Shown here in pieces: positions 36,701 to 51,383 of a stretch of 64,000 nt of DNA. The stretch is taken from assembly GCF_011801145.1 (NCBI RefSeq), contig NZ_CP046172.1, forward strand, positions 2,790,001-2,854,000, given 5' to 3'. The first letter of the stretch is position 1, and every line of letters starts with the position of its first letter. The notes under the pieces were generated by a model. It had not been told where the DNA came from, searched no databases, and saw only the letters and a list, made by a program, of their open reading frames with translations. The DNA is from Nocardia arthritidis. GTDB taxonomy: Bacteria > Actinomycetota > Actinomycetes > Mycobacteriales > Mycobacteriaceae. Both the position numbers and the translations under genes were made by a program.

Positions 36701-37810
36701 TTGAGAACACAAGGCGAGATCGGCGACCCGACCACCCCCACTGCAGGTATCGGTACTGGTGACAATGGTTCGGGCCCAGCAGCACGCACCGTGCGCTCCA
36801 GCATCGAACTCGCTCCCGAATCCGTGTTCCCGTTTCTCGGTTCGGCTGACCAGAATCTGCGTGAACTGGAGCAGTTGTTGGATGCGGATATCCATGTCCG
36901 CGGCAACGCGGTCACACTCACCGGCAAGGCGGCCGATGTCGCCTTGGCGGAGCGTGTGATCGAACAGCTCGTCGCGCTGACCGGTCGCAACCGAGTGGTG
37001 ACACCGGAGGCGGTGCGGCATACCGTTTCGATGCTCACCGAGGGCACCTCGGAATCCCCTGCGGAAGTGCTGAGCCTGGACATTCTGTCCCGGCGCGGCA
37101 AGACCATCCGGCCCAAGACGCTGAACCAGAAGCGCTACGTCGACGCGATCGACGCCAACACCATCGTGTTCGGCATCGGCCCGGCCGGTACCGGCAAGAC
37201 GTACCTGGCGATGGCGAAGGCCGTGCAGGCGCTGCAGACCAAGCAGGTCAACCGGATCATCCTCACCCGTCCCGCGGTGGAGGCGGGCGAGCGGCTCGGC
37301 TTCCTACCCGGCACGCTCAACGAGAAGATCGACCCGTACCTACGTCCGCTGTACGATGCACTGCACGACATGATGGATCCGGAGGCCATTCCGAAGCTGA
37401 TGGCCGCGGGCGTCATCGAGGTGGCGCCGCTGGCCTATATGCGCGGTCGCACGCTGAACGATTCCTTCATCATCCTGGACGAGGCGCAGAACACCACGGC
37501 CGAGCAGATGAAGATGTTCCTCACCCGGCTCGGTTTCGGCTCCAAGATCGTGGTCACCGGTGACGTCACCCAGGTCGATCTGCCCACCGGCGCCCGTTCG
37601 GGCCTGCGTGCGGCGTCGGAGATCCTCACCGAGATCGACGATATCCACTTCGCGCAGCTCACCAGCAGCGATGTGGTTCGGCACCGGCTGGTCTCGGAGA
37701 TCGTCGACGCATACGACCGATTCGAGTCCGAAACCCGGCCGCCGGTCGGCGCGCACTATCCGGGCAACCGGGCGCAGCGCCGCGCCGCGAGCCGGGGAGA
37801 CCGCAGGTAA
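36701..37810 (+). CDS. phoH: PhoH-like ATPase
   Basis: A 369-residue PhoH-family NTPase linked to RNA metabolism. A KH-like N-terminal part ([20 protein letters not shown]) precedes the ATPase domain. That domain has [16 protein letters not shown] (Walker A), then [26 protein letters not shown] (Walker B) and [12 protein letters not shown]. The TTG start at 36701 is provisional, because the region upstream has no clear ribosome site. It heads the conserved phoH-ybeY-corC-era run. Confidence 0.93.
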
Positions 37811-37833
37811 GTGCGGTCGCCTACGCTGTTCGG

Positions 37834-38382
37834 GTGAGTATCGAGATCGCCAACGAGTCGGGTATCGATGTACCCGAAGAGGATCTGGTCAGCGTCGCGC
37901 GCTTCGTGATCGGCCGGATGGACGTGCACCCGGCCGCCGAGCTGTCGATGGTGCTCGTCGATCTCGACACCATGGCCGACCTGCACATGCGCTGGATGGA
38001 CCTGCCGGGCCCGACCGATGTCATGTCGTTCCCGATGGACGAGCTGGAGCCGGGCGGCAGGCCCGACAGCGCCGAACCGGGGCCGTCCATGCTCGGCGAT
38101 ATCGTGCTCTGTCCCGAATTCGCCGCGGGCCAGGCGCGTAAGGCCGGCCACTCGCTGCAGCACGAACTAGCCCTGCTCACCGTGCACGGCGTCCTCCACC
38201 TGCTCGGCTACGACCACGCCGAGCCCGAGGAGGAAAAGGAGATGTTCGCGCTGCAGGCCCGGCTGCTCGACGAGTGGTACGAGAGCCTGCGCGAGGCGGC
38301 GCTACGGGCCGAACTCGCCGAACGCGACGCCCGCCTGCTCGGCAAGACCGGCTTCACCAGTCCGGGTGAAGCGCCCGCGTGA
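37834..38382 (+). CDS. ybeY: Endoribonuclease YbeY
   Basis: A 182-residue metal-dependent endoribonuclease needed for 16S rRNA 3'-end maturation and ribosome quality control. The zinc site is the His triad in [14 protein letters not shown] (HxxxHxxxxxH), followed by the usual [13 protein letters not shown] helix. Also visible is [17 protein letters not shown] start 23 bases after the phoH stop; the stop overlaps the next GTG by 4 bases. Confidence 0.95.
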
Positions 38383-39731
38383 ATGCGTTCACCCTTATCC
38401 TGCTGGCGATCGTGCTGGTGCCCGTCGGTGGCGCGTTCGCGGGCATCGATTCGGCGCTGAACACCATCTCGCCCGCGCGAGTGGACGACCTGGTGCGCGC
38501 CGATCGCCCCGGCGCGGTGCGGTTGAGCCGGATCATCGCCGACCGGCCGCGCTACGTGAATCTCATGGTGCTGCTGCGCATTCTGTGCGAGATCACCGCG
38601 ACGGTGCTGCTGGCGGCCGGGCTGATCACCGTGATGGAGGACGACTGGGCGCTGCTCATCACGGCTTTGGTGATGGTGGTCGTCGACTACGTCGTAATCG
38701 GGGTCGGGCCAAGGACTTTGGGACGCCAGCACGCGTATTCGATTGCGCTGGGCGCGGCGCTGCCGCTGCAGTTCATCGGCGCGCTGCTCGGGCCGGTGTC
38801 GCGGCTGCTGATTCTGCTGGGTAACGCGATCACCCCGGGTAAGGGTTTTCGCAACGGCCCCTTCGCTTCCGAGATCGAACTGCGCGAGGTCGTCGATATG
38901 GCGGGCGAGCGCGGGGTGGTGGATGCCGAGGAGCGGCGGATGATCCAGTCCGTCTTCGAATTGGGCGACACCCCGGCGCGCGCGGTGATGGTGCCGCGCA
39001 CCGAGATGGTGTGGATCGAGGCGGACAAGACTGCCGCACAGGCGATGTCGCTCGCGGTGCGCAGCGGTCACTCGCGGATTCCGGTGATCGGCGAGAACGT
39101 GGACGATATTCTCGGCGTCGTGTATCTGAAAGACCTTGTGCCGCACGCCGATCGTGCGCGCAAGGTGCAGGTGCGGCAGGTGATGCGCCCCGCCGTCTTC
39201 GTACCCGACTCCAAACCCCTGGACAGCCTCCTCGACGAAATGCAAAGGCGGCGTAACCATATGGCGCTGCTGGTGGACGAATACGGTGGTATCGCCGGAC
39301 TGGTCACCATCGAGGATGTGCTGGAGGAGATAGTCGGGGAGATCGCCGACGAGTACGACATCGACGAAACCCCGCCCGTGCAGGACCTCGGCGGCGGACG
39401 CTATCGGGTGTCGGCCCGGCTGCCGGTGGAGGATCTCGGCGAACTGTACGGCCTGGAGATCGAGGAAGAGGATGTCGACACCGTCGGCGGGCTGCTCGCC
39501 CACGAACTCGGCCGGGTGCCGCTGCCCGGCTCGAAAGTCGTTGTGCACGGGCTGGTTCTGCGGGGCGAGGGTGAGGCCGACGCGCGTGGACGGATGCGGG
39601 TGAACACGGTGGTTGTGAAGCGGGCGCCGGAGAGATCCGAGGCGCCCGCCGAGTCCGATGTCAACGGCAGTGGTCGAAAAAGCAACGGCAGCAAGCGCAA
39701 ACGCGACGAGGATGGAGAAACCGATGACTGA
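38379..39731 (+). CDS. CNNM/CorC-family membrane protein with CBS pair
   Basis: A 450-residue hemolysin/CorC-type protein. The N-terminal DUF21/CNNM domain has about four hydrophobic segments (residues 1-140). The linker is [25 protein letters not shown] pair follows (about 210-330: [12 protein letters not shown] and [20 protein letters not shown]). The C-terminal CorC/HlyC transporter-associated domain covers about 345-425 ([16 protein letters not shown]). The tail is basic and Ser/Asn-rich. Related proteins handle Mg2+ or Co2+ and sense adenosine nucleotides. Coupled to ybeY by GTGA. Confidence 0.92.
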
Positions 39732-40083
39732 GTTGGATGCCGAGGATACCAAGTTGGTGACGCTGGCCCGCGGTGCGCTCGGCCGCACCGGCGGCGCGAG
39801 CGGCGCGGCGATCCGCGATACCGACGGCCGCACCTACGCGGCGGGCGATGTCTGCCTCGGCGCGCTGCGGCTGACCGCGCTGCAGGCGGCGGTGGCGGCC
39901 GCGATCTCCAGTGGCGCAGAGGGTTTCGAGGCGGCCGTGGTGGTCGCCGGACGGCTGTCCGACCCGGGGATCACCGCGGTGCGCGAGGTGTCCACCGGTG
40001 CCCGGATCGTCTTCACCGACAAGGCTGGTGCGGTGTTCGACATCGTCGACGATACCGTCGATTCGGTGGTGCAGGATGGCTGA
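39724..40083 (+). CDS. Cytidine deaminase-like protein without zinc ligands
   Basis: A 119-residue protein between the CorC-like gene and era, where M. tuberculosis has Rv2365c. Its fold pattern ([67 protein letters not shown]) matches cytidine deaminases. The catalytic H/C-A-E and P-C-x-x-C motifs are absent: the position of the first reads [10 protein letters not shown]. Catalysis by the usual zinc mechanism is therefore unlikely. ATG at 39724 overlaps the previous stop by 8 bases, and its own end overlaps era by 8. Confidence 0.8.
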
Positions 40084-40984
40084 GGCCAGCGAATTCCGTT
40101 CGGGCTTCGTATGTTTCGTCGGCCGGCCGAATACCGGCAAGTCGACGCTGACCAATGCGCTCGTCGGTGCCAAGATCGCGATCACCTCGTCGCGGCCGCA
40201 GACCACCAGGCACACCATCCGCGGCATCGTGCACCGGGAGCACGCCCAGCTCATCCTGGTCGACACCCCCGGACTGCACCGGCCGCGGACCTTGCTCGGC
40301 CAGCGGCTGAACGACCTTGTGCGCGATACGTATTCGGAGGTCGACGTGATCGCCCTCTGCATTCCGGCCGACGAGAAGATCGGGCCCGGTGACCGCTGGA
40401 TCGTGCAGCAGGTCAAGCAGATGGCGCCCAAGACCACGCTGATCGGCGTCGTCACCAAGATCGACAAGGTGAGCCGCGATCAGATCGCCCAGCAGCTGAT
40501 CGCCACCTCCGAACTGCTCGGCCCGGAGGCCGAGGTGGTGCCGGTATCGGCGGTGCGTGGCGAACAGGTCGAGGTGCTCGTCGACGTCATCGCCGCGAAA
40601 ATGCCTGAGGGCCCGGCCTTCTACCCCGACGGTGAGCTCACCGACGAGCCGGAGGAAACCCTCATGGCCGAGCTCATCCGCGAGGCCGCGTTGGAGGGGG
40701 TGCGTGATGAGCTGCCGCATTCGCTCGCCGTGGTGATCGAGGAGGTGCTGCCGCGCGAGGAAAACGAAGACATGCTTGATGTGCATGCTTTGCTTTATGT
40801 AGAACGCCCGAGCCAGAAGGCGATCATCATCGGTAAGGGTGGGGCGCGGTTGAAAGAGGTTGGTACCAACGCCCGCAAGCAGATCGAGCACATCCTCGGT
40901 GTGCGGATCTACCTGCATCTGCATGTGAAGGTGGCCAAGGACTGGCAGCGCGACCCGAAACAGTTGGGCAAGTTGGGCTTCTGA
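40076..40984 (+). CDS. era: GTPase Era
   Basis: A 302-residue GTPase that binds the 3' end of 16S rRNA and helps assemble the 30S subunit. G motifs are in order: GRPNTGKSTL (P-loop), TRHTIRGIV (switch I Thr), DTPGLH (G3), TKID (G4) and VSAVRG (G5). The C-terminal KH domain has IIIGKGGARLKEVGTNARKQ and LHVKVAKDWQRD. ATG at 40076 is supported by the GFVCFVGRPNTGKS start of the G domain. It closes the conserved run. Confidence 0.96.
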   Translation: MAEASEFRSGFVCFVGRPNTGKSTLTNALVGAKIAITSSRPQTTRHTIRGIVHREHAQLILVDTPGLHRPRTLLGQRLNDLVRDTYSEVDVIALCIPADEKIGPGDRWIVQQVKQMAPKTTLIGVVTKIDKVSRDQIAQQLIATSELLGPEAEVVPVSAVRGEQVEVLVDVIAAKMPEGPAFYPDGELTDEPEETLMAELIREAALEGVRDELPHSLAVVIEEVLPREENEDMLDVHALLYVERPSQKAIIIGKGGARLKEVGTNARKQIEHILGVRIYLHLHVKVAKDWQRDPKQLGKLGF

Positions 40985-41475
40985 CCGCGCTACAATTGTC
41001 GGTTGGCGGCGGTACGCTTGTAATACTATGTTTCCCATAGCTTTCCGCCGCCCAGCTGATCCGCTATGCGCCGAAGGGGTTGGCCGTGCGCATGATGGTC
41101 CGAGCGGCCCGCGACCCGGACTCGGCGTATCGGGCCGGAATGCCGCACCGTGACGTCGATCCGGCCGATCCGCTTGCCGAGCCGCGACACGATGATCGCG
41201 GGGGCGATGGAGTCGGGCGAACAGTATTCCTGCGGTCGCCGCGGTTGCTGATGTTGCGCTGAGCGCGAATTCGAGTCCGCCGGGGATGTCACGCGTCGAT
41301 TCGGGGAATCGGCTCCGGTGTTGCCACGGCGGATAAATGCCCGATAAATGCCGGGCAAGGCCGAATATCTGGTGGGTGGACGGGGGAGTTCGCCACACAT
41401 ATAGTCCCGCCTATAGACGTGCCGCTGAACGCGTTCGGGGTGTCCGTCTGATGGGAGTTCGGGAGGAAACCCCAA
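40985..41475. promoter_or_regulatory. Region upstream of the kinase-lipoprotein operon
   Basis: 491 bases between era and the first kinase. A possible promoter for rightward transcription is TTGGCGG at 41003-41009 with TAATACTAT at 41021-41029, about 13 bases apart, so spacing is short. The AGGAAACCCC just before 41476 is the kinase ribosome site. A possible small minus-strand gene inside is listed separately. Confidence 0.35.
41026..41190 (-). CDS. Possible 54-aa basic protein
   Basis: From GTG at 41190 the frame reads VSRLGKRIGRIDVTVRHSGP, then IRRVRVAGRSDHHAHGQPLR, and ends with ADQLGGGKLWET before TAG at 41026. The alternating basic/hydrophobic pattern looks like a small folded protein more than a shadow. 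However, the ribosome site is weak, and the gene would run opposite to both neighbours. No family is recognised. Confidence 0.3.
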   Translation of the reverse strand: MSRLGKRIGRIDVTVRHSGPIRRVRVAGRSDHHAHGQPLRRIADQLGGGKLWET

Positions 41476-42960
41476 GTGAGAATGGTCGAAGGCACGGTCT
41501 TCGCCGGATACCGAATTGAGCGGCTGCTCGGCGCGGGTGGGATGGGCGCCGTATATCTGGCGCGGCATCCGAGGTTGCCGCGCCATGACGCGTTGAAATT
41601 GCTCGCGGACAATCACGCCGCGGATCCGGAATACCGGGCGCGCTTCCTGCGCGAGGCGGAGATCGCGGTGCGGCTCCAGCATCCGAACCTGGTCGCGGTC
41701 CGTGACCGTGGCGAGGAAGCCGGACAGCTGTGGATCACCATGCAATACGTGCCGGGCCTCGACCTCGCCGCGGTGATCGCCCGCAACCCGCGCGGCCTCG
41801 CCGTCGAACGGGCGCTGTGGATACTGGGCGAGGCCGCGCGGGGCCTCGACGAGGTGCACGACGCCGGACTGCTGCACCGTGACGTGAAACCGGCCAACAT
41901 CCTCATCACCGGGGAGTGGGACGGTCCCGACCGGGCGCTGGTCACCGACTTCGGAATCGCCCGTGCCGCAGAAGATTCCGCGACGTCGGCGGTGCGCGAG
42001 CCGACGGCCAGCTTGGCGTATGCCGCCCCCGAGCAGATACGCGGCGATGCGATGGACCGGCGCGCGGACGTTTACGCGCTGGGCTGCACGCTGTTTCATA
42101 TGCTCACGGGTTCGGTGCCGTTCCCGCGCGAGAGTCCGGGGGCGGTGATGTACGCCCATCTCAATGAGGACCCACCACTGGCCACCCGGGAAAATCCCGG
42201 TGTGCCAGCGGAATTGGCCAAGGTTGTCGTTAAGGCGATGGCGAAGCGGCCGGAGGATCGGTACCCGAGTTGTGGTGCGCTGGCGACGGCGGCGCGGACG
42301 GCGTTCGCGCGGTCGCTCGCCGCCGAGTCCGGCGCATCCGAAGAGGCGGGCCGCAAGCGCGGTCGGTGGTTGCTGTCCGGTGTCGCGCTGGCCGTGATAG
42401 TTATTGCCGCGGTGGCGATTTCGGCTTTCGCCTGGAGCGGTGACGGCGGATCGGACCGGTCACATCATGTCACGGCGCCGGTGCCGAGGGTGAACGCCGC
42501 ACTGTGGAGTACGTACACGTTCATGGTCGAGCCGTTCGCGGATCTGCTCCCGCCGGGGCCATTTCTGTCCGGATATCGGGATCTGAGCGGATGCCAGCCG
42601 GTCGATGCCGCGAACCCGGACGTGGATCTGCCCTTCGACCAGTCGGTCAAGGTCGGCGAATTGCTGTGTGTCGGCGACCATGATCCGGTCACCACGTTGG
42701 TCGTCGAGTGCAATGCGGATCGCACACCGATTCTGCCGAGACCTTCGACGGATCGAGTCGAGGGTGAGGAGCGGTGGTCCCGGCCGTCCGGCACCGGCCG
42801 ATTGCGGTGGGGTAGCAATACGACCAACACCGGAGCTCGAACGGGTTGGCTCTACGTGTATTTCGACGGTCCCGACCGGAATTTCTGCAACCTGACGGTG
42901 TCGGGCACCGGATCGGGAACCGAACTACGCGGTAAATGGTGGCCGGATGCGCCTCTTTAA
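41476..42960 (+). CDS. Membrane Ser/Thr protein kinase 1 with extracellular sensor domain
   Basis: A 494-residue receptor-type Hanks kinase. The kinase domain covers about 11-275: GAGGMG glycine loop (19-24), Lys41 in DALK, alpha-C Glu60, HRDVKPAN (H134-N141), DFG (158-160), AAPE and DRRADVYALGCTLF. A Lys/Arg-rich juxtamembrane part and one transmembrane segment follow (about 299-318). The extracellular domain of about 150 residues has Cys in SGCQPV, LLCVG, VECNADR and NFCNL and ends WWPDAPL. It has no PASTA repeats. The activation segment lacks the usual GT and reads PTASLAYAAPE. GTG follows GGAGG. First gene of a six-gene operon; all active-site residues are intact. Confidence 0.9.
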   Translation: MRMVEGTVFAGYRIERLLGAGGMGAVYLARHPRLPRHDALKLLADNHAADPEYRARFLREAEIAVRLQHPNLVAVRDRGEEAGQLWITMQYVPGLDLAAVIARNPRGLAVERALWILGEAARGLDEVHDAGLLHRDVKPANILITGEWDGPDRALVTDFGIARAAEDSATSAVREPTASLAYAAPEQIRGDAMDRRADVYALGCTLFHMLTGSVPFPRESPGAVMYAHLNEDPPLATRENPGVPAELAKVVVKAMAKRPEDRYPSCGALATAARTAFARSLAAESGASEEAGRKRGRWLLSGVALAVIVIAAVAISAFAWSGDGGSDRSHHVTAPVPRVNAALWSTYTFMVEPFADLLPPGPFLSGYRDLSGCQPVDAANPDVDLPFDQSVKVGELLCVGDHDPVTTLVVECNADRTPILPRPSTDRVEGEERWSRPSGTGRLRWGSNTTNTGARTGWLYVYFDGPDRNFCNLTVSGTGSGTELRGKWWPDAPL

Positions 42961-44215
42961 GCGAAACACCTTGCGCGCCAGTATCGTCCGCAGGATTTTC
43001 GGCACGGTGTCGATACTGCTGATCGTGACGGCGGGCTGCGCCGTGCCGGGCAATCCGATGCCGGAGCATCCCGACCTCGGCGCTCTCGACGTCGGCCCGT
43101 ATCCGAGGGAGCCGCTGCCGGTACCGCCCAGCGGCGACGAAAAGTACGGCAGGGTAATCGAATCCGTACGGATGGGTGAGGCGGTCATCGATCCGACGGA
43201 GGCCGACGCCGCGCTGAGCTTCGGCCTGTCCGGCAACGGGGCCGTTCCGCTGCCGACTCCGGCGAAGGCCGCCGGATTCCTGGCCGGGCCGGTGCGCGCG
43301 GTTCTGGAGAAGCGCGGAATGCTGGCCGGATTCGCGGTGAGCGCCGCCGACCGGGAGGTGTCATCCCGCCCGCAGGTCGGAACTTGCCGCCTGCTCACGG
43401 TGATTGTGCTGCGTTTCCCCGACCCGGACGCGGCGCGCCAGGCGGCCCGGGAAATCGACTCGGTCGATTTCGCGGTGAACACCGAGAACGCCGCCGTGCC
43501 GATTCCGGATTACCCGGAGGCACAGGCACACTGGCGGCCCACCGTGCCGACGCTCGCCGCGACGACCTCCATCGACTCGTATGTCGTCAGCGTGCTTGCC
43601 GGGCACACCGGGACCGATCTCCCGGCGCTGACGGGGTTGGCCCGCAAGACATTCGGCGTGCAACTACCGAGGTTGCGCGAGTTCGCGGCCACCCCGCTCG
43701 ACCGGATCGCGTCGCTGCCGCTGGATCAGGAGGGCATGGTGCGGCGGCAGGTGCCCGCGTTGGCCGGGCGCTGGTCGTATCCGACGGTGGTTCTGATGAA
43801 CCGGCAGGAGGTCGCGGGTTGGGATTCGCTCATCTCCGCGCGTGGCGTCGTCTACGGGCCGCGGGCCGCGCGCCGGTTCATCCGGCAGGGCGGTGGTGAT
43901 TTCGATGCGATCGCCGTCAACGGGACCGATTTTCTGGCGCGCTATCCGGATGCCGCGACGGCCAAACAGCACTTCGACGCCGCGGCGCGTAAAGGCGGCG
44001 CGCTGGGCCTGCGCCCTATTCCGGCTCCGGACGGGACCAGGGATGTGCTCTGCTACGTCGACGACAGTATCGGTCAGTCGCCGGGAGTCGCATTGATCAA
44101 GTACTCGTGCCGCGTGCTGTACGGGCGTTATCTCGCACAGATCTTCAGCCGTGTGCCGCAGGATATCCGGCAGAAGGCGGCATCGCAGTACGCGCTTTTG
44201 GTTGGCAGCGGGTAG
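42947..44215 (+). CDS. DUF7373-like lipoprotein 1
   Basis: A 422-residue exported lipoprotein. The N-terminal signal (RIFGTVSILLIVTAGC) ends in lipobox TAGC near residue 31. The mature protein has two similar alpha/beta halves. The first has EKYGRVIESVRMGEAVIDP, RGMLAGFAV and LTVIVLRFPDPDAARQAARE. The second has LLTGLARKT-like FGVQLPRLREF and GVVYGPRAARRF. A Cys pair near the end (DVLCYVDD, KYSCRVLYG) may form a disulfide. Its ATG lies inside the last 14 bases of kinase 1, giving fixed stoichiometry. It is a likely ligand-binding partner of the kinases, by context only. Confidence 0.78.
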   Translation: MRLFKRNTLRASIVRRIFGTVSILLIVTAGCAVPGNPMPEHPDLGALDVGPYPREPLPVPPSGDEKYGRVIESVRMGEAVIDPTEADAALSFGLSGNGAVPLPTPAKAAGFLAGPVRAVLEKRGMLAGFAVSAADREVSSRPQVGTCRLLTVIVLRFPDPDAARQAAREIDSVDFAVNTENAAVPIPDYPEAQAHWRPTVPTLAATTSIDSYVVSVLAGHTGTDLPALTGLARKTFGVQLPRLREFAATPLDRIASLPLDQEGMVRRQVPALAGRWSYPTVVLMNRQEVAGWDSLISARGVVYGPRAARRFIRQGGGDFDAIAVNGTDFLARYPDAATAKQHFDAAARKGGALGLRPIPAPDGTRDVLCYVDDSIGQSPGVALIKYSCRVLYGRYLAQIFSRVPQDIRQKAASQYALLVGSG

Positions 44216-44218
44216 GTG

Positions 44219-45724
44219 ATGAGCGAAACATTCCGTCCGGGAACGGTTTTCGCCGGATATCTGATCGAAAGGGTGCTCGGCAGCGGTGGCATGGGCACGG
44301 TGTACGCGGCCAAGCATCCACGGCTGCCGCGACGCGACGCGCTGAAGGTGTTGTCGCAGCGGCACAGTGCCGATCCGCAGTTTCAGCGGCGGTTCATCCG
44401 GGAGGCCGAGCTCGCCGCCCAACTGGACCATCCGAATATCGTCTCGGTGCACGACCGCGGTATGACGGACGGACGGCTCTGGATCGCAATGCAATTCGTC
44501 GACGGAGCCGACGCCGCCGAACTTGTCCGTCGCGGGGCGCTGCCGCCCGAGCGCGCGGTGGCCGTTATCGGTGCGGCGGCGCGCGGGTTGGACGCGGCGC
44601 ATCGCGCCGGACTGCTGCACCGGGATGTGAAGCCGGGCAACATCTTGGTCGAGTCTCGTCCCGGCGGACCGGACCGGGTGTACATCACGGATTTCGGAAT
44701 CGCGCGTGCGGTAGGCGATGCGAGCGGGCTGACCGTGACGGGTGCGATACTGGGTACCTTCGCGTATACGGCGCCGGAACAGCTGTCCGCGAGCACCGTC
44801 GACCACCGCGCCGATATCTATTCGCTCGGCTGCACCCTCTTCGAATTGCTCACCGGCACAAGACCTTTCCCATATACGACACCTGTCGAGGTGATCCGGG
44901 CGCAACTGCAGGACCCGCCGCCGCGTCCGTCGGCGACGAATCCCGGGCTGCCGCGCCGGATCGACGAGGTCATCGCGACCGCCATGGCCAAGGATCCGGC
45001 CGCACGTCAATCGAGTTGCGGTGCGCTGGCGAATGCCGCGGCGGCGGCGTTGGCGCCGGACACTGCGACGGTGCTGGTTCGGGCAGCGCGACCGGTCTCC
45101 CGCCGCCGTTGGAAGTACTTCGCGGTGGCCGCGGCGATCGCCGTGCTGGCGGCGGCGATCGTGAGCGGCCTTGTGCTGACCGGTAATTCGGATGTCGTGA
45201 AGGCGCCGGGCGCCACCACGACGGCGCGTCGCACGGTATCGGCGACGCCGCCGACCACGAGCGGAACGGTCGCTTGGGGAAACTACAGCTATGTGGTGCA
45301 GGCGTTTCCCGGATTGCTGCCCGCGACCCCGCTCGACAGTGGTTATCAGGGTTTGGTCTGCGCGGCCGTCGGACTGAATGGCAAGCCGATCGATGTGAAC
45401 GCCCGTGATCCGGTGAACGAGTTGAAGTGCAACGGCAATTGGAATCCGGTCGAGCGGATACGGGCCTTCTGCAACGCGGATCGTCGACCGACCACCGTCG
45501 AACCGTTCGACGACGCGGTGCAGACCGGACAGGAACGGTGGACCAGGCCGTCGGGCAGCGGTCTGGTGACACTGAACGACGCGACCAAATCCGACGGTAC
45601 CGGAACCGGTTCGCTGCAGGTGCAATTCGACGACCCGAACCGGAACTTCTGTGCGCTACAGATTTTCGGCGGCACATCGGGACGGGATCTGTACGACCGC
45701 TGGTGGGTGGGCGCGCCGCTGTAA
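44219..45724 (+). CDS. Membrane Ser/Thr protein kinase 2 with extracellular sensor domain
   Basis: A 501-residue kinase with GSGGMG, Lys in DALKVL, alpha-C Glu in FIREAEL, HRDVKPGN, DFGIARA and the phosphorylation-type loop TVTGAILGTFAYTAPEQ. It lies 3 bases behind lipoprotein 1 (GTG at 44216 or ATG at 44219). One membrane segment lies near 300-322. The extracellular domain begins SYVVQAFPGLLP and has Cys in LVCAAV, LKCNGN, AFCNADR and NFCALQ; it ends DRWWVGAPL. The kinase and the tail resemble kinase 4 most. The loop carries Thr residues suited to autophosphorylation. Confidence 0.9.
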   Translation: MSETFRPGTVFAGYLIERVLGSGGMGTVYAAKHPRLPRRDALKVLSQRHSADPQFQRRFIREAELAAQLDHPNIVSVHDRGMTDGRLWIAMQFVDGADAAELVRRGALPPERAVAVIGAAARGLDAAHRAGLLHRDVKPGNILVESRPGGPDRVYITDFGIARAVGDASGLTVTGAILGTFAYTAPEQLSASTVDHRADIYSLGCTLFELLTGTRPFPYTTPVEVIRAQLQDPPPRPSATNPGLPRRIDEVIATAMAKDPAARQSSCGALANAAAAALAPDTATVLVRAARPVSRRRWKYFAVAAAIAVLAAAIVSGLVLTGNSDVVKAPGATTTARRTVSATPPTTSGTVAWGNYSYVVQAFPGLLPATPLDSGYQGLVCAAVGLNGKPIDVNARDPVNELKCNGNWNPVERIRAFCNADRRPTTVEPFDDAVQTGQERWTRPSGSGLVTLNDATKSDGTGTGSLQVQFDDPNRNFCALQIFGGTSGRDLYDRWWVGAPL

Positions 45725-45745
45725 CCGGAAACAGGGGAGAAGACA

Positions 45746-47185
45746 GTGAATACGGCCGCGGGAGCGACCTTCGCCGGATACCGCGTCGAGCGCACGCTCG
45801 GCACGGGTCCGATGGGTACGGTGTATTCGGCGCGGCATCCGCGATTGCCACGCCAGGATGCGCTGAAGATCTTGTCGGAGCGCTATTGCGACGCCGGTTT
45901 CCGTACGCGATTTCTGAGCGCGGCCGATGCGGCCGCACGGCTGCATCATCCGAATCTGGCCACCGTGCGTGACTTTGGTGAATTCGACGGCCGGTTGTGG
46001 ATCGCGACGCAGTACGTCGAAGGCGTCGATGCGGGTGTCCTGATCGAGCGCGGTCCGGTCGCGCTCGATGTGGCGCGTGCGGTGCGAATCGTCGCCGAGG
46101 CGGCGCGTGGGCTGGACGAGATTCATCGCGCCGGCCTGTTGCACGGCGACGTGAAGCCGTCCAACATTCTGGTGGCGGAGCCGCGGGGTGAGCCGGACCG
46201 GGTGTTGCTGACCGATTTCGGGATCACCTATGCGACAAAGGATTCGGTGGACAGCGCATATGCCGCACCGGAACTGTTCACGGGTACGGATCTCGATGGC
46301 CGCGCCGACGTATATGCGCTGGGCTGCACGCTGTTTCACCTGCTGACCGGATCCGTGCCATACCCGGACGGCGCAACCGCACACGATTCGCCGCCCCGGC
46401 CATCGCTGATGAACCCCAGGGTGCCGACGGAATTGGATGCGGTGATCGCGCGGGCACTCGACCCGGATCCGGCACGGCGCTATCCGAGCTGCGGGGCACT
46501 GGCCGAGGCCGGGCTCGATGCGGTTGCCGAATTGCTTGCGCCGCAGGCTCGGTCGGTGCCCGCGGTCGCCGGACCGCCGCGCCGGATCGGTGTGCTCGCG
46601 GGCGTCGCGGCGTTGGCGGTTGTCCTCGTCGCGGTGGTGGTTTCGCTCGTTGTCTGGTTCGGCCGTGCGGGTGCGACGGCGGTGGCGCCGATCGCGACCG
46701 CCGGTATTCCGGCGCCGGAGGTATCCGCCGGTTGGGGGCAGCATGCCTTTATGGTCCAGGCATTCTCGGAATTGCTGCCCTATTCGCCGGACGGGATCGG
46801 CTACCGTGAGCTCGCATTCTGCCGCGCCTTCGACGACCACCACCAGAGCGTGCCGCTACGGCAATCGTTCGAGCGGGGTGTGCTCGAATGCAGCGGCGGC
46901 GACGATCCCTCTGTGGTGCTGACGGTGACCTGCAACGCGGACCGCACGCCGATCACACCCGCCGCGACGACCGACCGGGTCGAGGGTGACGAGCGCTGGA
47001 CCCGTCCTTCGGGATCCGGATATCTGCGGTGGAGCAATTACACGACGGCGGCCGGACGGGAGTGGGGGCGATTAGAGGTGTATTTCGACAAACCGAATCG
47101 GAACTTCTGCAAGCTGTCGGTGGCTTCCGGTGCGGCCACCGGAAGCGGCCTGCGCAGCGGTTGGTGGCCCGATGCGCCACTGTGA
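45746..47185 (+). CDS. Kinase 3, probable pseudokinase with extracellular sensor domain
   Basis: A 479-residue paralogue of kinase 1. The glycine loop (GTGPMG) and Lys41 are kept, but three parts are altered. The alpha-C Glu is replaced by Ala (RFLSAADAA instead of RFLREAEIA). HRD has become HGD (HGDVKPSN). The segment between DFG and APE is 14 residues long, not 23-24 as in its three paralogues, and lacks the TxTG phosphorylation site. DFG itself remains. The membrane segment is near 278-300, and the extracellular domain ends WWPDAPL with its Cys intact. It could act as a scaffold or allosteric partner. It starts 21 bases after kinase 2 (GTG). Confidence 0.85.
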   Translation: MNTAAGATFAGYRVERTLGTGPMGTVYSARHPRLPRQDALKILSERYCDAGFRTRFLSAADAAARLHHPNLATVRDFGEFDGRLWIATQYVEGVDAGVLIERGPVALDVARAVRIVAEAARGLDEIHRAGLLHGDVKPSNILVAEPRGEPDRVLLTDFGITYATKDSVDSAYAAPELFTGTDLDGRADVYALGCTLFHLLTGSVPYPDGATAHDSPPRPSLMNPRVPTELDAVIARALDPDPARRYPSCGALAEAGLDAVAELLAPQARSVPAVAGPPRRIGVLAGVAALAVVLVAVVVSLVVWFGRAGATAVAPIATAGIPAPEVSAGWGQHAFMVQAFSELLPYSPDGIGYRELAFCRAFDDHHQSVPLRQSFERGVLECSGGDDPSVVLTVTCNADRTPITPAATTDRVEGDERWTRPSGSGYLRWSNYTTAAGREWGRLEVYFDKPNRNFCKLSVASGAATGSGLRSGWWPDAPL

Positions 47186-48428
47186 CAGGAACATTCGGGT
47201 CCGCGTGGGGTATCTGCTCGTCATCGTCGTCGCGCTGATGCTGGCCGCGGGTTGTGTGCGAGACGGAATTCCAGTGCCCGCCGGGCCCGACGGCGTGCTG
47301 GACGTGGGACCGTATGCCACCGAACCGACCGTCGCGCCCCGGGACAGCAATGAGAAATACGGAAGGGTGGTGGAGTCGGTCCGGATGGGCGAGGCGGTGA
47401 TCGATCCCGTCGAGGCGGATCCCGCCCTGTCGCACGGGTTGGGTTCGCACGGCAGCCTGGTGTTGCCCACACCGGCGAGAACCCAAGGGCTGCTGTCGGA
47501 TCCGGTGCGTGCGGTACTCGAGCGGCGCGGCATGCTGGCCGGGTACGCGGTGGGCGGCGCCGATCGCGATACCGGCGCCAATCCGGTGGTGGGCACCGCT
47601 CGGCTGCTCACGGTCGTACTGCTGCGCTTCCCCGATCCGGCGGCGGCAGCACAGGCCGCGCAGGAGATCGACGCCGCCGACGCGTCGGTGAGTCCGGCGA
47701 ACGTGGCCGTATCCATCCCCGGAATATCCGCGGCGCACAGCCATTGGCGCCCGAATATCCCGACCTTGGCGGCGACGATGGCGCAGGACTCCTTCGTGAT
47801 CAGTCTGCTCGTCGGCCACACCACGCCCGATCAAGCGTTGCTAACGGGTCTGGCCGCGAAGGCATTCGGCGCGCAGGCGACCCGGCTGCGCGAATTCCGG
47901 CCGACGCCGCGGGACGGGATCGCAACGCTGCCACTCGACCAGGACGGAATGCTCGCCAGGACGCTGCCGGAAAAGCCTGGGCGGTGGCAGTTTCCGCTCG
48001 TCATCTCCGCGGATCGCGATAGGAACGCGGGCTGGTCGGGTACCACGGTGGTCCGCGGCGTCGTCTACGGCCCGCGGGCGACGCATCTGTTCGTCGGCCG
48101 CAGCGGGGGTGCGGAGGCGGAGTTGTTCGCGGCCGGAACCTATTCCAATGTCAGTCGATTCGCGGACGTCGCCGTCGCGCGCAAGGCTTTCGGGGAGGCC
48201 GCGAAGGATGCGCTGGCGGATCCGGATGTGCGCGCCGCACCCCCGGTGGCGGGTCTACCGGATTCCAATTGCTTCCAGTTCCTCGGCGGGAACGAGGACC
48301 AGATCGCCTTCGCCTGTCAGGTGCTGTACGGTCGCTATGAATCGGTCATTTACGGTGGGACGCTGAAAGATACGCAGCAGCGCGCCGCCGCGCAGTATGC
48401 GCTATTGGCGAACAGCGAGTCCCGATGA
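47172..48428 (+). CDS. DUF7373-like lipoprotein 2
   Basis: A 418-residue paralogue of the lipoprotein at 42947. The signal segment (GYLLVIVVALMLAAGC) ends in lipobox AAGC near residue 28. Shared blocks include EKYGRVVESVRMGEAVIDP, RGMLAGYAVGGADR, LTVVLLRFPDPAAAAQAAQE and GVVYGPRATHLF. The ATG lies in the last 14 bases of kinase 3, the same overlap as between kinase 1 and lipoprotein 1, and the stop overlaps kinase 4 by 4 bases. Cys pair DSNCFQFL and FACQVLYG near the end is conserved with lipoprotein 1. Function unknown; co-operation with the kinases is inferred. Confidence 0.78.
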   Translation: MRHCDRNIRVRVGYLLVIVVALMLAAGCVRDGIPVPAGPDGVLDVGPYATEPTVAPRDSNEKYGRVVESVRMGEAVIDPVEADPALSHGLGSHGSLVLPTPARTQGLLSDPVRAVLERRGMLAGYAVGGADRDTGANPVVGTARLLTVVLLRFPDPAAAAQAAQEIDAADASVSPANVAVSIPGISAAHSHWRPNIPTLAATMAQDSFVISLLVGHTTPDQALLTGLAAKAFGAQATRLREFRPTPRDGIATLPLDQDGMLARTLPEKPGRWQFPLVISADRDRNAGWSGTTVVRGVVYGPRATHLFVGRSGGAEAELFAAGTYSNVSRFADVAVARKAFGEAAKDALADPDVRAAPPVAGLPDSNCFQFLGGNEDQIAFACQVLYGRYESVIYGGTLKDTQQRAAAQYALLANSESR

Positions 48429-49951
48429 TCGGAACACTCACGCCCGGAACGGTTTTCGCCGGATACCTGATCGAACGCGTGCTCGGCGCCGGCGGGATGG
48501 GGGCGGTCTATCTGGCGCGCCATCCCCGATTCCAGCGCCGGGACGCGCTCAAGGTGCTGTCATCGGATCATGCCGGCGATCCGGAATTCCGGGCCAGGTT
48601 CGTCCGGGAGGCCGATCTCGCTGCGCGGCTGGACCATCCGAATATCATCGCCGTGCACGACCGGGGTGTCGAGCACGGGCGGTTGTGGATCGCCATGCGT
48701 TTCGTGGACGGAATCGATGTCGCGGAGCTGATTCGGCGCATGCCCGGTGGGCTGCCGCCCGCGCAGGCCGTCGATATCGTGGCGCAGGCGGCGAGCGGGC
48801 TGGACGCGGCGCATCGCGCCGGAATGCTGCATCGTGACGTGAAACCGGCCAACCTGCTGCTCGAAGCGCGTCAGGGCGAACCCGATCGGGTGATCGTCAC
48901 CGATTTCGGGATCGCCAAGGCCGCAGGGCAATCCACGGTGTTGACCGAAACCGGCGCCGTGCTGGCCACGCTCGCATACGCGGCTCCGGAGCAGCTGACC
49001 GCGACCGGCATCGATCATCGTGCCGACGTATACGCGCTGGGCTGCACCCTTTTCGAGCTGTTGACCGGGGCGAAGCCGTTTCCGCGAGTCAATGCGGCCG
49101 CCGTGATGCAGGCCCATCTCCAGGATCGGCCGCCCTCGGTCTCGGCAGCGAATTCCGCTGTGCCGCGGGCGATGGACGCGGTGATCGCCCGCGCGCTCGC
49201 CAAGCGTCCCGAGGAACGCTTCGGCTCATGCGGTGAACTCGCGGCCGCCGCGGCGGCCGCGCTGGCCGGGTATCCGGTGTCCGCGTTCGATGCGCCAGTA
49301 TCGCCGCGGCGGGTCGGGCGGATCGCCGTCATTGCGGCCATGGCATTGGCGATTACCGCCGCTATCGTGAGTGTCGTTGTGCTGGTCAATAATTCGAGTG
49401 GATCCTCGGCTGAGGTGACGGCGGTGACCAGGGCGCCGACCAGCACTGCGGTCACCCCGCCACCGTCGACGGCCGCAGCGTCGGCGTCGTGGGGCACCTA
49501 CAGTTTCGTGCCTCAGTTGTTTCCGGGCCTGTTGCCTGCAGGCCCGGATGTCAACGGGTATCTAGGTATTCACTGCTACGCGCTCAACAAGGATCACAAT
49601 CCGGTCGACCTGCACGCATCGCTGGTCAAGGAGATCGTGCGGTTCGTCTGTGACGCGCCCGAGGGCGGCCCGTTCACGGTAATGACCGTCAGCTGCAGTA
49701 CCGACGGATTCGTACCCGGCCGCGTGCCGTTGCCGCCCGACGTGCAGCCCGTCGGCGACGAGCAATGGGAACGCGCGTCCGGGCGTGGGTGGGTGCTCTG
49801 GGGCAACTCGACGAACAACAACGGCAAACCGACCGGGCACCTGGCCGTCCAATTCGATATCGGGCCACGCGATATCTGCGTCATAGTCGTGCGTGGCGCC
49901 AACAATGGCCAAGAGCTGTACGACAATTGGTGGAAGTCCGCGCCGATCTAG
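48425..49951 (+). CDS. Membrane Ser/Thr protein kinase 4 with extracellular sensor domain
   Basis: A 508-residue kinase, intact: GAGGMG, Lys in DALKVL, alpha-C Glu in FVREADL, HRDVKPAN, DFGIAKA and TETGAVLATLAYAAPEQ. The membrane segment lies near 300-322, after SPRRVGR. A Thr/Pro/Ser linker leads into the extracellular domain (SFVPQLFPGLLP), with Cys in IHCYAL, RFVCDAP, TVSCSTD and DICVIVV; it ends DNWWKSAPI. It is closest to kinase 2. The ATG overlaps lipoprotein 2 by 4 bases. It is the last gene of the operon and converges with the amidase gene, leaving 4 bases between. Confidence 0.9.
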   Translation: MIGTLTPGTVFAGYLIERVLGAGGMGAVYLARHPRFQRRDALKVLSSDHAGDPEFRARFVREADLAARLDHPNIIAVHDRGVEHGRLWIAMRFVDGIDVAELIRRMPGGLPPAQAVDIVAQAASGLDAAHRAGMLHRDVKPANLLLEARQGEPDRVIVTDFGIAKAAGQSTVLTETGAVLATLAYAAPEQLTATGIDHRADVYALGCTLFELLTGAKPFPRVNAAAVMQAHLQDRPPSVSAANSAVPRAMDAVIARALAKRPEERFGSCGELAAAAAAALAGYPVSAFDAPVSPRRVGRIAVIAAMALAITAAIVSVVVLVNNSSGSSAEVTAVTRAPTSTAVTPPPSTAAASASWGTYSFVPQLFPGLLPAGPDVNGYLGIHCYALNKDHNPVDLHASLVKEIVRFVCDAPEGGPFTVMTVSCSTDGFVPGRVPLPPDVQPVGDEQWERASGRGWVLWGNSTNNNGKPTGHLAVQFDIGPRDICVIVVRGANNGQELYDNWWKSAPI

Positions 49952-49955
49952 CTTC

Positions 49956-51383
49956 TCACCACCACTGTTCCGGTCGCTGCCGGTCCCAGCGCAGATCCGA
50001 TTCCAGTTGGGATGCAACGGATATCAGTAGGGGTTCGGTGGCGGCGGTGCCCATCAGTTGGGCGCCGACCGGCAGGCCGGATTCGGTGAACCCGGCGGGG
50101 ATGTTGATGCTGGGCCAGCCCAACACATTCCACGGCCAGGTGTATGGGCAGGCGGCGGTGATGAGGTTGTCGGTGGCCATCGCGCCTATGCCGTCGATGG
50201 CGTCGGCGCGCGGCGGTGGCGTCGCGGTGGTGGGCGCCAGGACCAGGTCGTAGTCGTGGAAGAAGGAGCCGATGCGGTGGCGCAGTAGCGGTTCGGCGCG
50301 GCGGGCGGCGAAAAGGGCTGGGCCGTCCAGTATTCGGCCGATGCGGGCGTTGGCGGCGGTGCGCGGGTCGACGGTGGCGTGCGGAATCCGGCGGTGCCAG
50401 GCGTGGATTCCCGCCATCGAGCGCGGCAGGAACGACGCGCCGACGAGTATGCCGTAGTGCAGGTCGGCGACGGTCACCGAATGTCCGGCGCGGCGCAGGG
50501 CCGCCGCGATGCGTTCGACACCGGCCGCCACCTCGGGATCGAGCCGGGTTCTGGTGGCGGTGAACGGGATCCGCAGCGAGAGCGCGATGCGCAGTCGGCC
50601 GGGGTCGCGGCCGAGCGCGTCGACGGCGGTGATCGGGTCGGGCGTGTGCCGGTCGCCGGGATGTGGTCCGGCGGCGGCGTCGAGCAGCAGGGCGGCGTCG
50701 GCGACGGTGCGGGCCAGCGGTCCGTTGACGGTGAGCCCGTAGAACGCCTCCGGCTCCGGCCAGGTGGAGATGCGGCCGCGCTGCGGTTTGATGCCGACGA
50801 GATTGGTCCACGCGGACGGGATGCGCACCGAGCCCGCGCCGTCGGAACCCAGTGCGGCGGGCACCAATCCGGCCGAGACCGCCGCGGCGGACCCGCCCGA
50901 CGAACCGCCGGGCGTGTGGTCGCGATGCCACGGATTGCGGGTGTGGCCGAAGGCGGCGCCGCTGGTGAACGGCCACTGGCCGAGCTCGCAGGTGTTGGTC
51001 TTGCCGACGATCACCGCACCGGCGGCGCGCAGCCGCCGAACCGCCTCGGCGTCTTCGGTTTTCGGCGGGAAGTCGCCGCCGCAACCGAAAGCCGTTGGCG
51101 TACCGGATAAATCGGTGTCGTCCTTGATCGCGATCGGCACGCCGAGCAGGGGGAGTCGCTCGCCTGCGGCCAAGCGTCGGTCAGCCTCCCGCGCCTCGGC
51201 GAGCGCCTGCTCCCGGCGCACGATGCGGAAGGCGTTGAGTGCGGGCTGGGCGGCATCGATCCGGTCGAGCGCGTCGGTGACCGCATCGCAGGAGGTGCGC
51301 GCGCCCGTCGCGATCGCGGCGGCAAGCTCGGTGAGTCCGAGTTCGGGCCGCGCCTGCTGCGGCGTATCGCTCGATGCAGTCAT
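49956..51383 (-). CDS. amiA2: Amidase, AmiA2-type
   Basis: A 475-residue amidase-signature enzyme. The Ser-cisSer-Lys triad is readable: Lys in VPIAIKDDTDL (near 84), and the two Ser in TPGGSSGGSAAAVSAG with DGAGSVRIPSAWTNLVG (about 156-190). It hydrolyses C-N bonds of amides; substrate unknown. In M. tuberculosis a gene of this family (amiA2, Rv2363) lies between era and recO, and this copy keeps that position apart from the inserted kinase operon. The start ATG at 51383 leaves 133 bases to the divergent hydrolase. Confidence 0.87.
   Translation of the reverse strand: MTASSDTPQQARPELGLTELAAAIATGARTSCDAVTDALDRIDAAQPALNAFRIVRREQALAEAREADRRLAAGERLPLLGVPIAIKDDTDLSGTPTAFGCGGDFPPKTEDAEAVRRLRAAGAVIVGKTNTCELGQWPFTSGAAFGHTRNPWHRDHTPGGSSGGSAAAVSAGLVPAALGSDGAGSVRIPSAWTNLVGIKPQRGRISTWPEPEAFYGLTVNGPLARTVADAALLLDAAAGPHPGDRHTPDPITAVDALGRDPGRLRIALSLRIPFTATRTRLDPEVAAGVERIAAALRRAGHSVTVADLHYGILVGASFLPRSMAGIHAWHRRIPHATVDPRTAANARIGRILDGPALFAARRAEPLLRHRIGSFFHDYDLVLAPTTATPPPRADAIDGIGAMATDNLITAACPYTWPWNVLGWPSINIPAGFTESGLPVGAQLMGTAATEPLLISVASQLESDLRWDRQRPEQWW

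Follow-up and report, generated by a model that had tools for sequence, protein, structure and literature searches.

What kind of device is encoded by an operon in which genes for receptor Ser/Thr kinases alternate with genes for lipoproteins? The question is raised by a stretch of 64,000 nucleotides (hereafter the window; positions 2790001–2854000) of the genome of Nocardia arthritidis, a single contig (NZ_CP046172.1) of 10.0 Mb. Six genes of the window encode two successive units, each made of a kinase, a lipoprotein and a second kinase (K1-L1-K2 and K3-L2-K4). The stimulus sensed by bacterial receptor Ser/Thr kinases is presented as an outstanding question in the excerpted text of PMC6069109. 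The kinase-lipoprotein-kinase (K-L-K) module recurs in many Nocardia genomes and has the look of a surface receptor with two kinases, so far undescribed, one of the kinases having lost catalytic parts repeatedly.

Two units in one operon

Unit 1 consists of the upstream (A) kinase K1 (41476–42960), the lipoprotein L1 (42947–44215) and the downstream (B) kinase K2 (44216–45724), unit 2 of the A kinase K3 (45746–47185), the lipoprotein L2 (47172–48428) and the B kinase K4 (48425–49951), all on the plus strand. Successive genes are spaced by −14, 0, +21, −14 and −4 bases, in agreement with the initial annotation, which had reported gaps of 21 bases or less. The open reading frame of L2 is listed from 47130; the ATG at 47172, on which the spacing is calculated, is the likely start because it gives the same 14-base overlap as found between K1 and L1, and a signal peptide with a lipobox. 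The resemblances between units noticed in the initial annotation hold as well: by BLASTP K1 and K3 are 50% identical, K2 and K4 51–52%, L1 and L2 51%, against 44–46% for the remaining (cross) pairs of kinases. Scans for promoters (2 sites, against a mean of 1.4 and a standard deviation of 1.2 in shuffled sequence) and terminators (2 sites, against 4.8) gave no signal; one promoter-like site lies upstream of K1 (41377–41405).

All four kinases match the Pfam family PF00069 (E 9.8e-31 to 2.6e-44). A hydrophobic segment follows each kinase domain (a single one in K1; that of K3 is divided into two by the scan), and an ectodomain of about 170 residues lies beyond it (45215–45721 in K2, 46676–47182 in K3, 49424–49948 in K4, all on the plus strand). 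Five catalytic residues, the beta3 Lys, alpha-C Glu, HRD Asp, Asn and DFG Asp, are all present in K1, K2 and K4. The solved structure closest to the kinase domain of K2 is 7naa, followed by PknE and PknB, and a Thr of K2 aligns with the first Thr of the TxT pair in the activation loop of PknB. The activation-segment Thr is intact in K4 also; the activation segment of K1 is unlike that of B kinases. In an alignment of 100 ectodomains four Cys columns stand out; three are conserved at 100%, the fourth at 99%. No Pfam family matches the K1 ectodomain; a Pfam scan of 72 ectodomains returned stray matches only (six families, one member apiece), and comparison of the ectodomain profile with solved structures gave six T-cell-receptor matches (best E 0.023), taken as chance.

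L1 and L2 are DUF7373 (domain of unknown function) lipoproteins, matching both PF24088 and PF24092, the N and C domains of the family, and carrying a lipobox, with the Cys at residue 31 in L1 and at residue 28, counted from ATG 47172, in L2. The GC dipeptide at L1 residues 30–31 is near-invariant.

Recurrence of the layout

Genes were called around DUF7373 loci in the window, in the rest of its own genome, in 20 regions from 19 genomes of the genus, and at 73 named loci, the distinct ones among the best 80 of 109 relatives. Genes were delimited by our own codon-score caller; their starts are therefore approximate, and contig ends truncate some of them. Many genus regions lie on the same contigs as named loci, and the two sets overlap. 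Up to 30 candidates per genome were scored in the genus search for DUF7373, up to 60 in that for ectodomains, and up to 12 in a further search for weaker relatives. Twenty genomes other than the host have a DUF7373 match; 19 were analysed (G001 was left out), G028 at one of four places.

In the host genome 13 DUF7373 genes form five clusters, four of which directly adjoin same-strand kinase genes. The 10.0 Mb of the genome contain 43 kinase matches at E 1e-10, and a random point would be expected to have about 0.04 of them in the 5 kb around it. An ectodomain kinase, or a fragment of one, stands beside the lipoprotein gene in 19 of the 20 genus regions, the exception being L063 (G027). Among the named loci, 67 of 73 have lipoprotein and kinase in one same-strand run (gaps below 150 bases), and 154 of 191 lipoprotein genes share a run with a kinase. 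Runs include the types K-L-K (17), K-L-K-K-L-K (9), K-L-K-L (3), K-K-L with other kinases (9) and L-L-L-K (16). The six loci devoid of a shared run are L093 (Antrihabitans), L102, L104, L112, L121 and L127; in L102 the kinase comes 196 bases after, outside the 150-base limit. Where distinct lipoproteins have an ectodomain neighbour, 51 out of 55 are flanked on both sides by a kinase or ectodomain gene on the same strand. The co-occurrence of lipoproteins and kinases elsewhere, expected by the initial annotation, is therefore widespread.

The ectodomain tells the same story from the other side. Across 59 genus genomes 60 matches score at least 166 bits among the matches listed, the next scoring 132 bits, and 59 of the 60, by comparison of coordinates by eye, adjoin a DUF7373 gene; the exception is in G056. 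Weaker relatives are found in kinase-kinase pairs with no lipoprotein match (L154–L158), in single kinases, and in longer single kinases of another family of the order.

Some of these outlying loci deserve a description. L164 (G056) has a strong ectodomain match (171 bits) in an open frame of 262 amino acids; its region lacks a DUF7373 match, and the genes called there include a kinase without ectodomain. L165, L166 and L167, in the other family of the order, encode single kinases of 758–810 amino acids with weak ectodomain matches (45–51 bits), possible distant relatives outside the genus. The proteins of L171 and L172, 733 amino acids long, contain more than one hydrophobic stretch, in fact several, and match both the kinase profile and the ectodomain profile weakly. 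In L093 (Antrihabitans stalactiti) the DUF7373 lipoprotein is 37% identical to L1, and a kinase match is absent from the stretch examined.

Kinase clades and age of the double unit

Modules with identical lipoprotein ends were merged, which lowered their number from 72 to 55 and leaves near-identical strains in the set. The 110 kinase slots of these modules gave 102 rows upon removal of eight: the unit 1 A kinases of L052 and L085 (fragments), the unit 2 B kinase of L058 (87 amino acids), the unit 1 B kinase of L085 (883 amino acids), and the non-kinase gene following the last lipoprotein in L090, L091, L094 and L097. Five middle kinases belong to two units at a time and were entered in one row each, leaving 97 kinases. 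A reduced tree of 55 rows holds 31 of these and 24 others. Both are quick trees, with support from the Shimodaira-Hasegawa-like approximate likelihood ratio test (SH-aLRT) only; all support values below are starred in the trees, apart from 91 and 85.

In the 97-kinase tree modules fall into two types. Type I A kinases form a clade of 37 rows (support 100), type I B kinases one of 36 (99), type II A kinases one of 12 (97); type II B kinases are made by a clade of 10 rows (98) plus L095/L096 (99). K1 and K3 are in the type I A clade, K2 and K4 in the type I B clade, as the initial annotation had anticipated; the opposite arrangement, K1 with K2 and K3 with K4, was not obtained. The A kinases of the two types do not make one clade, type II A branching on the B side. 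Within each module type the A and B positions are swapped solely by the middle kinase of L088, which groups with A and is counted among the 37 rows.

The initial annotation read the operon as a three-gene unit duplicated in tandem. Two like units are indeed present, but the doubling is not recent: the best identities of K1 to K4 to kinases of other genomes are 61, 59, 57 and 57%, against 50–52% between twins in the window. K1 groups with unit 1 of L046/L047 in the 97-kinase tree (96), a placement not resolved in two further trees, and K2 with kinases of L046/L047, unit 2 of L046 included (91). In the 55-row tree K3 and K4 are each joined to a kinase of L048, a locus with a single unit (98 and 97); in the larger tree K3 lies inside a group of 8 rows (85) and the placement of K4 is not resolved. 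A recent tandem duplication in this genome is hence rejected, and the trees would be read most simply as those of an ancient double unit, parts of which were lost afterwards. Kinases linked to a lipoprotein make up a single clade in the 55-row tree (99), apart from kinase-kinase pairs, which are themselves split by position (99, 100). Because the former make a single clade, the lipoprotein probably joined the kinases once.

Degradation of the third-slot kinase

The five catalytic residues are intact in 34 of 35 rows in the first slot, 34 of 36 in the second, 5 of 13 in the third, and in all 13 in the fourth. The eight degraded third-slot rows are those of the window, L046, L053, L055, L058, L066, L069 and L073; the intact ones are L052, L056, L070, L081 and L085, L056 and L070 being strains of N. 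neocaledoniensis. Elsewhere three rows out of 84 are degraded, the unit 1 A kinase of L090 and the unit 1 B kinase of L089, both short gene calls, and the unit 1 B kinase of L077 (Fisher p 1.3e-6, a value obtained on related rows). The middle kinase of L088 was scored as B in the slot count, though grouping with A, and moved to A for the Fisher and activation-segment comparisons. The term paired receptor kinases, used in the initial annotation, understates the asymmetry between the kinases.

K3 is a mild case among the degraded rows. The alpha-C Glu is lost, HGD replaces HRD and the activation segment measures 20 residues; thus the kinase is short of the full set of five residues. The beta3 Lys, the Asp of the HRD motif, the Asn and DFG are kept, and K3 may still bind ATP. 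Judged from its sequence, K3 is probably catalytically impaired, not proven dead. Its ectodomain is retained with all four Cys; in each of the 13 third-slot rows the frame is open and an ectodomain is matched.

Losses appear to have occurred more than once. On a tree of A kinases built on ectodomains only, the degraded label needs three changes, and the starred branches force two. A single origin of the degraded kinases is rejected by the approximately unbiased (AU) test (p 0.026 against a single clade), evidence of moderate weight because the group was named after the motifs and a first tree had been seen.

Selection was measured as the ratio of nonsynonymous to synonymous changes (dN/dS), by the Nei-Gojobori method (NG86) on GC-rich DNA. 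In kinase domains the ratios in third and first slot are 0.37 and 0.15 for L066-L069, 0.47 and 0.15 for L058-L073, and 0.28 and 0.11 for L053-L055, the latter from just 165 third-slot codons with dS near saturation; in the intact control L056-L070 they are 0.05 and 0.06. The corresponding ratios for ectodomains are 0.35 and 0.38, 0.31 and 0.35, 0.50 and 0.29, and 0.21 and 0.12 in the control. Therefore constraint on the kinase domain is relaxed, and constraint on the ectodomain equals that of the first slot in two of the three degraded pairs.

A and B kinases differ also in the activation segment. At the position 16 residues before the end of the APE motif, site of the K2 Thr, Ser or Thr is found in 35 of 36 type I and 11 of 12 type II B kinases (46 of 48 together), in 11 of 30 scored type I A kinases, and in all 11 scored type II A kinases; segments of odd length (7 type I A rows, 1 type II A row) were left unscored. 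This asymmetry is therefore confined to type I modules, window included, and absent from type II.

A candidate heteromeric receptor and its alternatives

In a predicted model, residues 72–246 of L1, in the N-domain, resemble the sensor domain of the kinase PknH, and a kinase sensor domain is the best match of the lipoprotein N-domain, with a structural match to 4esq. By sequence, PknH_C scores E 0.088 in L1, far under the Pfam cut-off, and a sequence search with the lipoprotein profile against solved structures gave no match. The DUF7373 lipoprotein is thus predicted, on its modelled fold, to carry a PknH-like sensor domain. The initial annotation had lipoproteins presenting signals to the kinases; the correction is that the lipoprotein itself may be the sensor.

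We give an even chance to the proposal that each K-L-K unit makes one heteromeric surface receptor, in which the lipoprotein is the detached sensor, A and B kinases are paired, and B is activated. The lipoprotein, on the outer face of the membrane, would act as ligand-binding subunit. Both flanking kinases would be single-pass proteins whose small four-Cys ectodomains dock the loaded lipoprotein; A and B kinases would so be brought together and B activated, the kinase which in 46 of 48 rows has Ser or Thr at the position of the first Thr in the TxT pair of PknB. The A kinase would be the asymmetric partner, and third-slot A kinases, having lost catalytic residues in several lineages while keeping the ectodomain, would resemble pseudokinase co-receptors. 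Two tandem units would provide two receptors with different lipoproteins. Gene layout, recurrence, kinase clades, the loss of catalytic residues, the retention of the ectodomain and the predicted folds are results of the analysis; ligand binding, docking, the pairing of A with B and the direction of activation are inferred, as is the physical sensing complex of lipoproteins and kinases. More tentative, and in our judgement rather doubtful, is the view of the module as a bacterial counterpart of ErbB-type receptors, in which a detached PknH-like sensor lipoprotein bridges two different receptor kinases; in no fewer than two Nocardia lineages, and probably in three, the kinase of one and the same gene slot would have become catalytically impaired and would serve as co-receptor.

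The main competing explanation makes the lipoprotein an effector rather than a sensor: as a carrier or assembly factor of the envelope, it would be produced together with kinases which control the same envelope process, with no joint receptor. We regard this as unlikely, since the best match of the lipoprotein is a kinase sensor domain, and since ectodomain kinases are encoded on both sides of its gene in 51 of the 55 distinct cases. Somewhat less likely still, the kinases may be independent homodimeric receptors duplicated in place, with a decaying third-slot copy and the lipoprotein as separate accessory. Kinase-only pairs and single copies do occur, third-slot kinase domains decay in several lineages, and in L053-L055 constraint on the ectodomain is lower too, all of which would suit independent receptors; yet all 13 third-slot frames are open and retain the ectodomain, dN/dS is below 1 in the three degraded pairs tested, and A and B positions are exchanged, within module types, in a single kinase. 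Neighbourhood of unrelated genes by chance, for which no supporting point was found, is rejected as practically nil, because four of five host clusters adjoin kinases against the 0.04 expected, 67 of 73 named loci are linked, and the layout recurs across the genus at different chromosomal sites.

Gene order here points to the candidate sensor subunit, the candidate active kinase and the candidate impaired partner of one receptor, in an operon which can be deleted or expressed as one block. An impaired kinase confined to one slot beside intact ones offers a natural setting in which to test whether bacterial kinases are activated as heteromers.

Relation to known systems

PASTA kinases (PknB/Stk1) share with K1–K4 the kinase domain and the single-pass layout. 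NF033483 is the top NCBIfam model for K1, K2 and K4; membership is rejected, as K1 to K4 score 279, 301, 180 and 294 bits against a cut-off of 450, PASTA domains are not matched at E 0.1 in any of the four, and the ectodomain is a different one. Membership of the PknH family is rejected likewise, PknH_C (PF14032) being not matched in K1–K4 at E 0.1. The likeness to PknH (sensor PF14032, 4esq) resides in the predicted fold of the DUF7373 N-domain. LpqQ, LprH, LppH, LpqA and Rv3705c are said, in the excerpt of PMC4118811, to share the PknH sensor domain, which would thus occur both in a receptor kinase and in lipoproteins; here, in contrast, the domain is not fused to a kinase, but resides in a separate lipoprotein encoded between two kinases.

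In the GlnH-GlnX-PknG system, whose genes are co-conserved and co-expressed, a lipoprotein is proposed to signal the presence of an external ligand to a Ser/Thr kinase, according to the excerpt of PMC6069109; there the signal passes through the membrane protein GlnX, whereas here two kinases have their own membrane segment. Bacterial Ser/Thr pseudokinases, including MviN/ActPs3 and two Nocardia asteroides entries, are covered in PMC12599244. As described in the portion of that paper at hand, they resemble the degraded kinases in the loss of VAIK, HRD and DFG residues, the shortened activation loop and the membrane location, a likeness drawn from description; a pseudokinase beside active kinases and a lipoprotein is not described in that portion, and the word lipoprotein is absent from the main text.

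DUF7373 is not named in any paper found in the open-licence literature. Titles and abstract openings in the open-licence literature on kinase-lipoprotein systems, PknH sensor domains, pseudokinases and receptor-kinase operons do not describe the kinase-lipoprotein layout.

Chromosomal position and variant orders

Upstream of the module lie, on the plus strand (36791–40984), genes for PhoH, YbeY, CNNM/CorC and Era-like proteins, identified by Pfam, and a small gene which we take to be cdd; downstream, on the minus strand (49956–51383), a single gene, presumably encoding an amidase, which is found at several era-linked copies. The module follows phoH-ybeY-corC-cdd-era in the window, at loci of N. 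pseudovaccinii, N. anaemiae and N. cyriacigeorgica, and in L059 (G016). Other neighbours flank many further copies, and the module seems to have been relocated as a whole. In N. crassostreae four contigs carry one module each (L087, L089, L090, L095).

Other DUF7373 clusters of the host genome vary in composition. At about 9.07 Mb (L015:7607–12617) two longer divergent kinases precede one DUF7373 lipoprotein, an order seen again in nine named runs; one of the kinases matches DUF3558 in its C-terminal half, below the threshold (E 4.8e-6, 27.1 of 34.1 bits). At about 1.33 Mb (L011:10597–19617) six DUF7373 genes accompany a kinase of 347 amino acids lacking a hydrophobic segment. Its gene overlaps that of a 191-amino-acid protein which starts with such a segment and has no Pfam match at 0.01; the two are possibly a receptor kinase split over two genes. 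In L013 (6751–11765) three DUF7373 genes lie upstream of a membrane kinase, on the same strand.

Variant orders K-L-K-L-K and K-L-K-L are found in L088 (N. inohanensis) and in L090, L091, L094, L097 and L170. In L081 the second unit is two genes away from the first. In L058 and L082, on one contig of N. seriolae, the last unit 2 kinase is called as an 87-amino-acid piece and a separate ectodomain kinase piece.
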